Origin: Polychytrium aggregatum
Taxonomy: Eukaryota > Chytridiomycota > Chytridiomycetes > Polychytriales
NCBI RefSeq assembly: GCF_025602895.1
Contig: NW_026516207.1
Location: 1,054,001 to 1,118,000, forward strand
Length of the DNA stretch: 64,000 nt
Direction of reading: 5' to 3'
Of the stretch, positions 5,458-33,644 are shown piece by piece. The notes below the pieces were generated by a model. It saw only the letters and a list, made by a program, of their open reading frames with translations, searched no databases and was not told the DNA's origin. Position 1 is the first letter of the stretch, and each line of letters starts with the position of its first letter. The translations under genes and the position numbers were made by a program.

Positions 5458-5790
5458 TCACTTTCTGGCATCAGCGACACAAGTCTGCTGATCCGTAGGC
5501 TCCAGTGGGCTGGATGCGTATCCCTTCCCTTGCTTCCACGAGGCATTCCCAAAGGCAATCACCACTTCGGTCTCCTTGGCGCCTGGTCGACGACTCGCTT
5601 GCACATCTTGCTTGCACATCTCGTGGACAGTGCGCTGTCGCTTGCTGTGGAGATCGAGTCGCTTGAATCGCCGTCGCCGGGTCAGGCTGAAGTACAGCTG
5701 TTTCTCCAGCATGTCTCCATCGAACACATGGCGAATGTATTGCAGGAAGGAAGCCAACCCGGGGATCTTGGGACTTGGTGTGGTGTCCAC
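5458..5790 (-). pseudogene. Fanzor/TnpB-like OrfB relic, locus A (RuvC-II region only)
   Basis: A minus-strand frame reads LASFLQYIRHVFDGDM, then a basic block (LTRRRRFKRLDLHSKRQRTV), then TEVVIAFGNASWKQGKGYAS. Basic helices followed by V-V-x-x-G-N-A-S are typical of the RuvC-II neighbourhood of eukaryotic Fanzor proteins, where Gly/Asn occupies the position of the TnpB glutamate. Codons for the last 20 or so residues are shared with locus B near 30207-30272. The frame diverges after GYASS and ends at 5458 without zinc-finger or RuvC-III motifs, and a stop lies just upstream of the conserved part. I infer a truncated, inactive copy. Family assignment is by remembered motif pattern and needs a profile search. 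Confidence 0.6.
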
Positions 5791-6331
5791 TCATTGCTCT
5801 GGATCCACTTGGTCGCCTGGGTGGTGTCTTTCGCTTGCGGGGAGCCATCTGTGCGAGAAAATAGCGACGATGACTGGTTCTGTCCTTGGGCAAGAGTGAA
5901 TATCCTCAAACCCAGCGCATTTTGGGCTGACAGTGATCCTGAGCAGTGACGTCCCTGATTCAGTTCCAGAAACGCATCACAGAATGCCAGTGCGAAAGTG
6001 CAGTGTTTGGTATAGGGTCATACCCAGCGCGCGATGGACTTGAGTGATAACATTCACCAGTGCTCGAAATCCGGGATGTCTCGTTTTTATTGGATTCTAG
6101 ATTCTGCTGTGTTTGCGCAGACGCTCTGTCAGCGCTGCGTGGGAATCTCGCTGCTGAACGCTCTGGATTGCCGTGCGGCGGAGATGCCGATGGACGGCGG
6201 CAGCACTCGCTGCGTCCGCTCGATAGGTTCGATCTCACCCGCCTATGAAGCAACGCCAGCGATTCCGATTCGAGCCCTGGCTTTCAATATCGCTCCCATT
6301 TCATTCGACTCCACCAGCCCGGCCATTCGTG

Positions 6332-28668: not shown

Positions 28669-29849
28669 CTGGAGACGGCGAAGGGTTAGCTTGGAGCCTG
28701 GACAGTTCGACAAGAGGGATGGAGCCGTTGAAGCCCGCAGAGATGCCAAGGTATGTCTCGACGCCAGCGGGACGGGCGTAAGAGCAAGACAGTTGCAAAC
28801 CGATGGCCGATACAATGGGACCGAAGAGCAAAGCACAAACAGGGTGCAACGAGACAAAGGACAAGACGACGACAGCGCAAGCCGACAGCGAGGCAGCAGC
28901 AGCAGCAGTGATTACCATGGCAGTGCTGGTCGAAGCTGAAGGGACATACGGATGGAGGAACAACGACCAAGTGTAGGCTTTGGAGACGGCTGCGGATGGT
29001 CGTGGAAAGTCAATGGCGAGCCGGACCTGCCCTTATTTTTTGCTGTGTAGCCCGGCTGCAAAGGGGGAGAGGAAAGGGGAAGGAGAAGGAGGAGCAGAGG
29101 GGATTCTTTCACCCGAACCAACAGCGACAGGCAGCAGCGGCTCTAGGAGACAAGCGAGGCAGGAAAGGAGTGCTCCGCGCAGCCCTGGGTGTCGGACAAA
29201 CCAACGACGCTGCCCGAGCTGGTCCCGGCTTTCGGAGTGGTTCGTGTTGGTGGATGGACATGAGGAGTCGAGCGGGTGTGCAACCGCAGAGGATGCAGCC
29301 AGGCGGACAGGAGAGGGGCAAGCACCACAACCCACAGCAACGCCGACGACAAGTGGACCCGCTTGCATTTGGTCAGAGATGCTGGGGTCCGCAGCACGGA
29401 CTGCAGCCTGGACTGCAGCGACGATGCGGGGTGAGATGGACTCGCTGCTGGCGATGGATGCGCCAAAAGGGCAGCTGGCGCTGGATGTGCCGAAAGGGCA
29501 GCGAGCAGGCCGGCATGTCGGCAACATTGCGCCCAGGCCAGGGAACGGGAATGGGCGATTCCTTTGGCGGATGGACTGCAGCGCCACCGGTGAGTCATAG
29601 GCCTCCCGAAATTTACCCGGACACGGAATGACCCAGCAACGTGTCGAACAGCCAAGCACGGGCGGCATGGACAGGGACAGGGGGCGTGTGCGAATGAGAA
29701 GAGGAAGAATGAAGTTGTGTGGAAGGGGGGGACCAAGCGAATCGTCAACGGGCCTACAGTCTATCCCGAAAGAAACGGGACAGTTCCTTCCTGGCTTCAG
29801 ATGTCTGAAACCCGCTGACTGACTGTAGGCCCAGCGGGCAGGCCATGGC
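28669..29849. other. intergenic, likely holds the velvet 5' exon and promoter
   Basis: No independent gene is supported. The segment contains the branch-like ctaac and ctccag acceptor used for the velvet exon. It also carries a 25-bp duplication near 29456-29506 (ggatgcgccaaaagggcagc and a variant copy). Long plus-strand frames at 28980-29630 lack any domain. Confidence 0.45.
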
Positions 29850-30330
29850 ATTGCACTCCTGTCTTCGTTGGCAATCTCTTTGTTTTTGTTGGTTTGGGAA
29901 GCACAGTCTTGAATACACTCGGTCGATCTCCTGTGGCGATGATCGACTGGCATACCGAGATCATGTTCCGTGAGGCATTGATGTCTCAATGTGTGAGTGT
30001 GGTGGATGCATTCGACCCTCTGCACAGCTTCATGGTTTCTCGATATCAAGATGCTCGACCTTCTCGAGTCGCTTGGCTTCCCGACAATGTGAGCACACCT
30101 GGGATGTGTTGAACTCGTTCACCGAGCACACATGGATCTTGGAGACAGATCGGTCTGGTGATGGTGGAACTACTCAAAGTATTTGGCGAACCTGAGTCTC
30201 CTGGGACTGGATGCATATCCCTTCCCTTGTTTCCACGAGGCATTTCCAAAGGCAATCACCACTTCGGTCTCCCTTGGACATACTTGCTTGGCCATGAATG
30301 CGATGAGTGGGTGGGTGTATTCAGGTCACA
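29850..30330 (-). pseudogene. Fanzor/TnpB-like OrfB relic, locus B (RuvC-II, zinc finger and RuvC-III)
   Basis: Read on the minus strand, frames switch several times but show family blocks in the right order. PLIAFMAKQVCPRETEVV leads into IAFGNASWKQGKGYASS, the RuvC-II region. Next comes RRLRFAKYFE, then in another frame HVCSVNEFNTSQVCSHC, the Asn-Glu-x-x-Thr-Ser plus first zinc pair. A third frame has RVECIHHTHTL, a possible second zinc pair. Then DINASRNMISVCQSIIATGD and RPSVFKTVLPKP match the RuvC-III Arg-Asp-x-Asn-Ala-x-Arg-Asn block and its usual tail. At least two frameshifts and several stops disrupt it, including a stop where the Arg before Asp is expected. No RuvC-I block was found upstream. 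I infer an inactivated RNA-guided nuclease of transposon origin. Family assignment comes from motif memory, not a search. Confidence 0.72.
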
Positions 30331-31038
30331 GTAAACACACTGTCCTGGTTAGAAACGGGGAGTGTCCCATTTCATTTTGGAAACGCTGTATCCAAGCACT
30401 GGATCGCTGCGCCATGGGGTGGGGATTGACACGTTCAAGGACTGAAACACCACAGCATCGAGGCACCCACACCACCGGCCAGCCAAAACAATTTGCAGAC
30501 GAACGAGCGTTCTCCTGACAAGGCGGACGCCAGGCCTGGTTTTGAGCCGTAAGTTCTGACACGGCGCCGCCGGTGCTTGGTCGTCGCTTCATGAATATTC
30601 AGGCTCATGCCAAGGCTGCCACGCTGCCTGGTGTCGGATCAAGGGAGGATGGTCGTGGTGTCGGGGAAGGCTGGTGACTTGCTGCCTGCTTTCTTCGGTA
30701 CCATGTGGCGAGGGATGGTCTGGTTGTGCTGACTCTTTCGAGTATCGATTGTTGTGGTCGAGTTGTTGTTGTCGAGTCATTCGATGGCTCTCTCGATCGA
30801 TCAACATCGGTGATTGTTATGGGACAGCACTATTGTATATTGGATGTATTGGATGTATTGGATGTATTGGATGTCAAATACATCATCACTGGGTCAATAT
30901 CGATTGATTGTAACCACTTTGCAAGTCCACTATTTGGTATCATGGTGGGTGGGATGGGTGTTGGTGTGGTTTGCTTGGCTGCTTGCATTTACAGTGCTGT
31001 GATTTGGTGGTTTGGAGTGGAACTCGAGTGACTCGGGA
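30331..31038. other. intergenic, no gene seen
   Basis: Between the Fanzor-like relic and the 3' end of the Sel1 gene. It may hold degraded N-terminal relic sequence, but no motif could be read. A tandem repeat is present. Confidence 0.4.
30840..30875. repeat. 9-bp tandem repeat (tggatgtat)
   Basis: Four consecutive units, the last partial, in AT-richer DNA than the surroundings. Confidence 0.85.
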
Positions 31039-32616
31039 TCAGGGCCACTTGCCGAACCACTTGAGTCTGTCGATGGCCAAATCGCAACCTTGATTGGCGG
31101 ACTTGCGGTACCAGAGAACAGCGGTGTTGATGTCTGCATCAACACCATAGCCATCCCTGTAGCAGTTGCCGAGATGATATTGTCCGTATCGATTGTCCTG
31201 GTCGGCCGATCTTCTGAACCATTCAAGTGCTTTGGTTTCGTCATGGGCGACACCTTGTCCAAAGTAGTAGCACGTACCGACCATCCAATGTCCATACGAG
31301 TTGCCTTGGCTCGCCGCCTTGTTATACCACTCGAATGCCTTCTCGTGGTCCTCTGATACTCCCCCACCCCTACGGTAGCACTCTCCGATCCACAACTGGC
31401 TGTCGCTGTGACTATCGTTGGCGAGTTGTTCAAAGATGCCAGCTGCCTTCACCCGGTCCTCGGTGGTTCCGAATCCATTGACAAGACACACAGCCGTCAG
31501 ATGCTTGCAGAGCCAGTCACGATCCGATCCCAGCTGGCACAATTCGAAGAAAGTGCGTGCTGTAGTTGAGCCAGACTTGGTTCCCCAGGTGTACGATGCC
31601 AGACACTCGTCCTCTCTGAGCTTGAACACATTCGATCGGTTCTTGCGGATGATCTTGACACCCTTCTGTTCGTCCCGCACGGTACCTCGGCCAAGGTAGT
31701 GCATCCAACCAAGCATGTGGGTGGCGATGGACTTGTGAATTGGATCGGTCGAGAGGTCGCTGACTTCCTGCCAGTGGTGGAAGGCGTCAGCGTCGCTTTG
31801 TTCGACTCCATCGCCCAGGAATGAGCGCCATCCACGGAGGAACACGATGTGAAGTCGGCCGTCCTCGCTGCCTTGATCTTCAGCCTTGGAGTACCACTCG
31901 ATGGCTGCATTGATGTCTTGATCGACACCCTCGCCTAACTCATAGCATCGACCGAGAGCAACTTGGGCTTGTGCCATTCCCCGATCTGCAACATTGCAAT
32001 ACAGCTCGACAGCCTTGGTGTGGTCTCTATTGGTTACGATTCCATCGTGATAACATCCGGCCAGGTAGAACTTTGCCTTTGGATGGCCGGCATCAGCAGC
32101 CTTCCTAAGATAGCGCATGATTCGCCTGGCGATTCCTCTCATCTTGGGCTTGTTTGTTGATGATGGGCCGAAAAGTTTGACTTGGAGGACCCTGGCCAGG
32201 ATATAGGAGGCGGATGCGTTTCCTTGGTCCGCCAGAGCAGCGAGCCAAGACTGGCTGCCAGTGTATTGGTTCTCGCAGTGTAGCGAGAGCGCAATCGTCT
32301 CGCTGGGTGTGAGGCCAATCCGCATCTGTCCATCTGGATGACACAGTCCTGCCATCTGACACCAGGTGTTGAAACAAGGCAGCTTGAAGCTCAGGAGTGG
32401 GCGGGCTCGTTTGCACACTCGGAGGAGGGCCTTGATGGTGCTGTGGTCGAGGGCGAGTTGGAAGCTGTCATTGCAGCAGATGATGGTGAAGATGTCTGGG
32501 TTGTGTTCGAGTGAGAGTTCGGTGATATCGGGGATCGAGGTTGTTCTGGCTTCAGCTTGGGTTTGCTGAGTGGCTGATGATGCCGTGGCTGAAGCAGGCT
32601 CGTTGATGCTGGTCAT
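31039..32616 (-). CDS. Sel1-like repeat protein
   Basis: An intronless gene of 525 residues from ATG 32616, the first Met after a long frame that lacks family features. Residues 1-40 are Ser/Thr/Ala-rich. From about residue 140 onward, several Sel1-like repeats (TPR-like helical pairs) occur. Examples are AKFYLAGCYHDGIVTNRDHT, AQVALGRCYELGEGVDQDIN, SQLWIGECYRRGGGVSEDHE, HWMVGTCYYFGQGVAHDETK and GQYHLGNCYRDGYGVDADIN. The repeats are interrupted around 31500-31800 by a less regular segment. These proteins act as adaptors, for example in chitin synthase regulation (Chs4/Skt5) or ER degradation (Hrd3). There is no membrane span or prenylation motif here to choose between them. Confidence 0.88.
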   Translation of the reverse strand: MTSINEPASATASSATQQTQAEARTTSIPDITELSLEHNPDIFTIICCNDSFQLALDHSTIKALLRVCKRARPLLSFKLPCFNTWCQMAGLCHPDGQMRIGLTPSETIALSLHCENQYTGSQSWLAALADQGNASASYILARVLQVKLFGPSSTNKPKMRGIARRIMRYLRKAADAGHPKAKFYLAGCYHDGIVTNRDHTKAVELYCNVADRGMAQAQVALGRCYELGEGVDQDINAAIEWYSKAEDQGSEDGRLHIVFLRGWRSFLGDGVEQSDADAFHHWQEVSDLSTDPIHKSIATHMLGWMHYLGRGTVRDEQKGVKIIRKNRSNVFKLREDECLASYTWGTKSGSTTARTFFELCQLGSDRDWLCKHLTAVCLVNGFGTTEDRVKAAGIFEQLANDSHSDSQLWIGECYRRGGGVSEDHEKAFEWYNKAASQGNSYGHWMVGTCYYFGQGVAHDETKALEWFRRSADQDNRYGQYHLGNCYRDGYGVDADINTAVLWYRKSANQGCDLAIDRLKWFGKWP

Positions 32617-33644
32617 GTTGACGGAGACTGAAGGGAGGCAAGTGGATGATGGCGATGGACAGGAGACAGAGAGGCAGGTTGTGGCGAAGCAAGCCAAACC
32701 CCTGGCAATTGGAGGCGAAGCAAGTCCAAGCCACACCATGCGCCACACACAGGCCTGGCTCGATCCGACGGTTTGATGGCTGGAGTTGCTGCTTCCTGCA
32801 CTGCCACGCACACTGCCACACGCGTTGGCGCTTTCGGCAATGTTCACACCGATTTCGCTCAACTGCAAGGACACCCTACTCAGGTCAAATGCGGCACTGC
32901 TTGAGCTCACCAACCAGACGATCCGTCGAGCCCGTGCCGACGACTTGTTCTCTGCCCATCGACTCTGAGAACAGCGAACGAGCAATGGGACCGGCACACA
33001 CGCCCACATCGAGGTGAGGACCAGGGGGCGATGCTCATGAATGGGTTGCCTGCCGGCTATCATCAAGCCCGTGCGTGCCAACAAGCAGCTCGTATCTTGC
33101 CTTCCCCGACATCTATATCAACGACTGCCGTCGGTGGATTTGCGGGAGATCTGGATTTGGATTTGCCAGCCTGGGGCAACAAGCGGATCTGCCCGACCAC
33201 GGGGCAGCGGCATATGAAAATGGCATGTGCCGGAAAGACATCCTGTGCCCAGGAAGGCCCTTTTTTTTCTCTTGGCCGATCCCGCGAGCGCCAAGGCCGG
33301 GCAACAACACCCGCTTGCACATGCCTTGGGCGAGCCAGGGCCGTTGCAATAGCGAATCTGCTGCATCCTGTCTCCGATTCTCGGCAGCGTTGTCACCGCG
33401 GAGGCTGGACAGCGGCTTGTTGTGGCTGTTCCGACGAGCCCGAGCACAGACACAGCCGACAGTGTGCGCAGCCCCACTGCCACGCTGTTTGGCCCGAAAA
33501 GGAAGCCGTGTCGGCGTTCCACAGGGCGGCGGTGGGCGGTGCTTTTGGTCCCCTGCGTTTGCCTGGGTTTTGAGGCGGCTGCCGCACGGAGCTCCTGCCT
33601 TCCGCCATCTACCTTCCACCGTCGTTCTCAATCACACTCAAGCC
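32617..33644. other. divergent intergenic region
   Basis: The shared upstream region of the Sel1 gene (minus) and the WS/DGAT gene (plus). A minus frame continuous with the Sel1 gene extends to 33084, but it lacks a plausible ATG context and domain, so it was left out. Confidence 0.5.

Follow-up and report, generated by a model that had tools for sequence, protein, structure and literature searches.

A miniature inverted-repeat element of Polychytrium aggregatum with Tc1/mariner-like ends and the C-terminal segment of a Fanzor1 gene

The window, the whole stretch of 64,000 nucleotides of Polychytrium aggregatum analysed here, carries on its minus strand a short element of 636 bp that extends from 29755 to 30390 with a TA at each border; its limits are those at which the similarity among sister loci ends. 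The first ~95 bp resemble the left end of a transposon, and the rest includes the sequence for the last ~165 residues of a Fanzor1 nuclease followed by the right end. An earlier sequence-only reading had placed at 29850..30330 a Fanzor-like gene decayed in place. These coordinates are too narrow, the unit being 29755-30390, and what they cover belongs instead to a short deletion derivative that has been amplified, of which this is a single copy.

The left terminal inverted repeat (TIR), TACAGCGTTTCCAAAATGAAATGGGACA, is located at 30363..30390 on the minus strand and includes the 21-bp core whose genome-wide count is given below; the right TIR, CTGTCCCGTTTCTTTCGGGATAGACTGTA, is located at 29755..29783 on the same strand, follows a family pattern and is also found adjoining long Fanzor1 frames. 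Left and right TIRs are alike when read as inverted repeats, and together they give the element Tc1/mariner-like ends, TACAG...CTGTA, with imperfect TIRs of ~28 bp and TA on both sides; the ends had been described as invisible, and both of them, with their TA borders, are in fact seen. Next to the left TIR, the segment 30296..30362 (minus strand) would represent the untranslated leader of a transposon; its variation is flat over the codon phases in 16 copies.

The Fanzor1 sequence of the window copy can be divided in three pieces, all on the minus strand. Piece 1 (30155..30295) covers the RuvC-II region; it opens with an ATG (30295-30293) followed by AKQVCPRETEVVIAFGNASW and, over 46 residues, is 95.7% identical in amino acids to the sister copy L026 in its open frame. 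Piece 2 (30033..30158) includes the alternative Glu (30116-30114) and the first zinc CxxC, NEFNTSQVCSHC, and is 92.9% identical to L026 over 42 residues. Piece 3 (29893..29985) corresponds to the RuvC-III region, DINASRNM...RPSVFK, and aligns at 61% amino acid identity with the L050 open frame (809 aa) over its residues 779-809. Pieces 2 and 3 are separated by a stretch (29986..30034, approximate limits, minus strand) for which the alignment of 20 copies shows two variants; in the one carried by the window copy the frame is interrupted and the second zinc CxxC is missing, whereas the first CxxC and DINASRNM are present. At least two breaks interrupt the frame, one separating piece 1 from piece 2 and another separating piece 2 from piece 3. 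The motifs IAFGNASW (30256-30233), NEFNTSQVCSHC (30119-30084), DINASRNM (29985-29962) and RPSVFK (29925-29908) were all found where the sequence-only reading had noted them, spread over three frames with stops between them. A further motif of that reading, RVECIHHTH, taken for a second zinc pair, is an out-of-frame reading of the variant stretch, and sister copies with the other variant read ...HFVRSCASCHTLWDRDINA at this place. Given that the Fanzor part begins just before RuvC-II, RuvC-I with its DPG and approximately the N-terminal four fifths of the protein are absent, having fallen within the deleted region.

The assignment to Fanzor is supported by several comparisons. With the Pfam profile PF07282 the zinc-finger piece of the window gave E=2.9e-4 and 21.4 bits, under the cut-off of 26.3 bits, whereas the open frame of L026 passed the cut-off with E=5.6e-11; the likeness of the motifs thus exceeds chance. 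The signature of the alternative catalytic Glu, ExxxxxxCxxC, in which this residue is placed six residues before the first CxxC (excerpt of PMC10711439), is present in NEFNTSQVCSHC, and the moved catalytic Glu that had been claimed is the E of NEFNTSQVC. A profile built from six full-length frames and two MITE frames (MITE, miniature inverted-repeat element) was compared with 177,635 PDB sequences, and all three matches with E<=1 had weak scores: SpuFz1 (E=0.002), GtFz1, the Fanzor1 of Guillardia theta (E=0.021), and LaTranC (0.21). Fanzor1 is, by these weak scores, the closest among known structures; phmmer with one full-length relative gave no PDB match at E<=0.01. The E of DEYKTSSVC of SpuFz1 aligns with the E of NEFNTSQVC. 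SpuFz1, from Spizellomyces punctatus (PDB 8gkh; excerpt of PMC10432273), has a similar C-terminal RuvC/zinc-finger block and differs from the window copy, which is devoid of the N-terminal four fifths and has a broken frame. Given the Glu signature and the two Fanzor1 structures at the top of the PDB matches, the remnant is Fanzor-derived, as originally proposed.

The variant stretch at 29986-30034 exists in two forms among the 20 loci that were read with their flanks, which represent 12 insertion sites and include the window's own locus, L009. Fifteen loci, L009 among them, carry the frame-breaking form; the other five (L017, L018, L019, L025 and L026, three of the 12 insertion sites) carry a coding form that reads HFVRSCASCHTLWD / HFVRSCASCHTLWDRDINA and leaves the frame unbroken through RuvC-III, with GTG in place of ATG in L019. 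Since 15 of the 20 loci have the frame-breaking form, loss of the frame probably predates the amplification or was spread by exchange between copies, and a recent loss at the window locus, as had been suggested, is unlikely; the form that removes the second CxxC is the same in all fifteen.

In 18 of these 20 loci the similarity to the window ends near 30390 and 29755, the exceptions being L009 itself and the duplicated locus L010. The element measures 636-650 bp in all 20, with some ends extrapolated by a few bases, and its TIRs are recognisable, some in degenerate form: the first bases are altered in L012, in L019 and L026, in L020 with L023 and L024, and in L021, and the element closes in CTGCA in L015 and L016. 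No empty site was found for any of the six loci tested, where no match spans the joined pair of flanks, so the duplication of TA is deduced from the ends of the element. No tRNA or Rfam feature reached the gathering score. Ordinary Tc1/mariner MITEs are short, bounded by TIRs, flanked by TA, present in many copies and devoid of transposase. The window element is likewise short, uniform, high in copy number and provided with TIRs, and no DDE transposase was found within its 636 bp; it differs from the ordinary ones in its lopsided make-up, since a nuclease cargo gene next to one end supplies ~500 of the 636 bp.

The genome searched comprises 64,678,306 bases in 418 contigs. With the window segment 29800-30420 as query, at least 41 matches of 72-100% DNA identity were obtained, the window included (best 40 of 1,328 candidates scored). 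The 21-bp left core occurs at 233 places (up to one mismatch), the family pattern of the right end at 395 (up to two), and a 36-base pattern that spans the junction between the left end and the Fanzor sequence at 81 (up to three), a figure that counts places matching the pattern, not whole elements, and excludes more divergent copies such as those of the L020 type; the reversed control gave 0 in each case. When the 81 junctions were paired with 100 listed of the 395 right ends, at least 11 pairs were found, six of them of 642-648 bp, two of 506 bp, and one each of 532, 347 and 277 bp. At three places two left-end cores face each other 256-259 bp apart (C223:320680-320938, C325:15538-15793 and C223:766226-766481), and from their positions these are possible palindromic, left-left miniature elements.

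Long-frame relatives of the nuclease are abundant in the same genome. A search with the 179-aa open frame of L026 matched at least 150 places (best 150 of 1,629 candidates). Relatives with full-length open frames, which the sequence-only reading had proposed to look for, are present: at least 26 of the 150 places lie in open frames of 768-1011 aa (counted between stops), and the frames of many others reach ~290-320 aa. The PF07282 profile also matched at least 150 places (best 150 of 663 candidates). In four of the 26 (two on C63, one on C326 and C157:638190) a TGA lies inside the match; PF07282 frames of 883-892 aa run without a stop at those four, which suggests that the TGA is the natural stop of the gene. 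The MITE right end is located up to 120 bp downstream in at least eight of the 26 long relatives (compared with 100 listed of 395 right ends), and a DDE_3 domain is found 1.5-3.5 kb upstream, on the same strand, in at least five (compared with 150 scored of 335), among them the four with the TGA. Many of the DDE_3 matches in the genome lie in frames of 325 aa.

A second, related Fanzor1 family (L049-L054) has an unbroken frame in all six loci read, of ~790 aa from MPPKRKG, with the motifs IGIDPGVG (RuvC-I, with DPG in all six), VIAFGNASW, NEFNTSQ(V/L)CSKC, CKNPSC and NRDVNAARN. These frames are followed by ~100 bp that close in CTGAATA(A/T)AGTGTA, and upstream of them a transposase sequence was recognised by eye, FVDETGIR...VMDNVSMHKT...SPDFNPIENFFG, where DDE_3 matches are also located. 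On C402 a related mariner element was traced nearly end to end: it comprises a left TIR, TACAGGCAATCCAATAAAAAACGGGACA, the start of a transposase (by eye), DDE_3 in a 325-aa frame, a Fanzor1 of ~790 aa with IGIDPGVG, NEFNTSQVCSKC and NRDVNAARN, and a right TIR, with 349 unread bases between two pieces, within the 325-aa frame. At 3112-3160 of L049, on C402, a MITE whose left TIR has been lost lies directly against a full-length Fanzor1 element. A simple insertion of the full-length element into the MITE was rejected, as the left piece of the MITE expected beyond the element's left end is missing; a composite is for this reason possible. Another long-frame relative, L055 (C109:23529 on), starts with MAPKRKTPP and shows near its N-terminus two stretches, CRACGLTNHARPFTKKC and CATCKQVGHAKSSSSLC, which by eye resemble zinc knuckles.

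From these observations we consider it very probable that the element is a non-autonomous MITE that arose by internal deletion of a Tc1/mariner transposon with a DDE transposase and a Fanzor1 gene; it would have been moved in trans. The parent would be a transposon of the Tc1/mariner superfamily with these two genes, and the deletion would have left both ends together with the segment for the Fanzor1 C-terminus. The transposase of related mariner elements would recognise the common ends and mobilise the MITE by cut and paste, with insertion at TA. In 901 bases of the 5' side of L055 on C109 the MITE left end was not found, so that the MITE could be a chimera of two elements. Given that its frame is broken and RuvC-I is absent, the window copy presumably makes no needed protein.

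Mariner-borne Fanzor1 genes and non-autonomous Fanzor1 families are known (excerpts of PMC3627910). The Fanzor1 genes of PGv-1, PUl-1 and PUl-4 are carried by Tc/mariner elements with TA duplications (Bao and Jurka 2013, PMC3627910), some with a transposase and some Fanzor-only, which have mariner TIRs like the family described here; the excerpts of that article describe for them no miniature derivative reduced to the Fanzor C-terminus. According to the same excerpts, CRe-1, 2 and 3 of Chlamydomonas are also non-autonomous Fanzor1 families with some internally deleted copies, but they have Helitron-type ends and ten-exon genes and are not uniform small TIR elements. In the open-licence literature we found no report that joins Fanzor with miniature inverted-repeat elements, none that joins MITE, omega RNA and TnpB, and no precedent for a MITE of this make, in which the Fanzor1 C-terminus is kept. 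What looked like a one-off pseudogene becomes part of a large swarm within one genome, formed by mariners with transposase and Fanzor1, long-frame Fanzor1 copies and several deletion classes. A swarm of this kind lends itself to asking what Fanzor does for its transposon, and whether derivatives that keep the right-end RNA spread differently from those that lose it.

The retained right end raises another explanation, namely that the MITE is a passenger that supplies only a guide RNA: the right-end RNA would carry its own right flank as guide and be loaded by a full-length Fanzor1 encoded elsewhere, and empty donor sites would be cut and refilled. We regard this explanation as unlikely. The genome has many long Fanzor1 frames and the MITE retains its right end; in one studied Fanzor1 a three-stem guide-RNA scaffold is predicted to include the TIR and the TSD (excerpt of PMC10711439), so a MITE that keeps this end could in principle provide one. 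For two full-length relatives the right end is more stably folded than its shuffles (z -2.2 and -4.2), changes on both sides of a pair were observed in three of 25 pairs of 18 right ends, a result matched by one of 500 shuffles, and the lack of an empty site at the six loci agrees with refilling, a result that duplication would give as well. However, none of four MITE right ends folds better than shuffles (z -1.3, -0.8, -0.3 and +0.2), and a comparison segment from the left part of the element reached z -2.3, with -0.03 for an internal comparison stretch of the window element. All 500 shuffles showed at least as many further pair types among the 18 right ends, and the diversity of the right 126 bp (0.117, 0.119 and 0.171 over the three phases) is close to that of the left end. 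A hairpin at the terminus was rejected as proof of a guide RNA, since the left end of the MITE forms a stem-loop too. Beyond the TA, no position of the left flank is invariant among the 12 insertion sites, so no extended TAM is visible. Production of a guide RNA from the retained right end is weakly suggested by this evidence, and we find it distinctly unlikely that the MITEs and their size variants are free-riding donors of guide RNA that have dropped the body of the nuclease gene and kept the right-end RNA. If they were, a common pool of Fanzor1 from full-length copies would be programmed by the flanks of many MITEs, and the breaks would drive both re-insertion and the suspected exchange from copy to copy inside the elements.

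Less probable still is that the MITE encodes a functional mini-protein of ~165 aa under selection, e.g. a Fanzor regulator, formed by the RuvC-II region, the alternative Glu, the zinc finger and RuvC-III. The five loci with an unbroken frame would agree with it, and so would the distribution of diversity: at element positions 120-350, third codon positions vary ~3 times more than first and second ones (0.045 and 0.037 for the first and second, 0.126 for the third), and the left 95 bp are free of any phase effect (0.147, 0.122 and 0.136), as calculated from 16 copies after dropping the near-duplicates L014, L016, L018 and L024. Nonetheless, the frame is broken in most loci, the window included, RuvC-I is absent, L019 has lost its ATG, and in its coding part the MITE is mixed in with longer Fanzor1 copies: duplicates aside, the window copy is most similar to one on C416, with a frame of 895 aa and 92% identity, and the three best matches of L022, on C325, C223 and C1, have frames of 275-313 aa and 98% identity. 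Because these best matches are longer Fanzor1 frames, the codon-phase effect was probably inherited from longer genes, and it was rejected as proof of a working mini-protein.

It is extremely improbable that the locus is a stand-alone Fanzor1 pseudogene that has lately lost its frame, a view favoured by motifs better preserved than the frame and by the existence of relatives with long open frames, and opposed by a unit of 636 bp that has the two transposon ends and no more than roughly the final fifth of the gene, by the frame-breaking variant common to 15 of 20 loci, and by the deletion junction found at 81 places.

The deletion derivative also differs between duplicated loci. Nine pairs with the same insertion and the same flanks were compared and seven of them were summed, leaving out L020/L024 and L023/L024 (same site as L020/L023); 57 of 4,511 positions differ in the elements versus 43 of 20,698 in the flanks (1.5 kb on each side). 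A clear excess was observed in L019/L026 (14 of 646 element positions versus 5 of 2,998 in the flanks) and in L022/L028 (25 of 644 versus 7 of 2,990). L009/L010 differ at 14 of 636 element positions and also at 12 in ~600 bp of flank at the left end; as this flank is raised too, there is no element-only excess in this pair. In L020/L023 the four differences in 642 positions are not significant, and three pairs have none. Alignment columns 324-371 gather differences in L009/L010, L019/L026 and L020/L023, not in L022/L028, and the Fisher values overstate the significance because the changes are clustered. By hand count, each of the two alternative states is also found in the remaining 14 copies at 16 of 28 columns for L022/L028 and at 8 of 14 for L019/L026. 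The excess inside the elements of L019/L026 and L022/L028 fits gene conversion from copy to copy; false corrections of repeats in the assembly would fit too.

A second, separate Fanzor1 remnant, a decayed deletion derivative, was identified by two alignments at 5506..5978 on the minus strand of the window. Over 160 columns, its part 5819-5978 matches the 5' region of L055 with 86% identity, and 5506-5799 shows 46% identity to residues 609-701 of the L050 open frame; the remnant closes with VIAFGNASWKQGKGYASSP. It joins the region of the gene start to a stretch before RuvC-II and resembles the class of ~300-aa frames, a member of which, L057 (300 bases read), has the gene start joined to sequence after RuvC-I. 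A 25-base pattern for this class is also present inside long-frame relatives, e.g. on C109, and the 194 places where it occurs were for this reason not taken as the size of the class. By these comparisons, two distinct deletion derivatives of a single lineage seem to lie in the window.

A separate family that by eye was named Fanzor2/TnpB-like (L029-L046, e.g. L031, L035 and L038) is present in the same genome, with open frames of up to 447-477 aa; L031 carries the motifs SVDPGVRDF, GEEYTSKTCTHC, CNQC and IDRDVNGARN, and on C124 and C379 two pairs of this family lie in opposite orientation 5 kb apart. Next to the MITE, at 31039-33084 on the minus strand of the window, there is an open frame of 681 aa with Sel1-like repeats recognised by eye, and similar frames are found in L039-L041.
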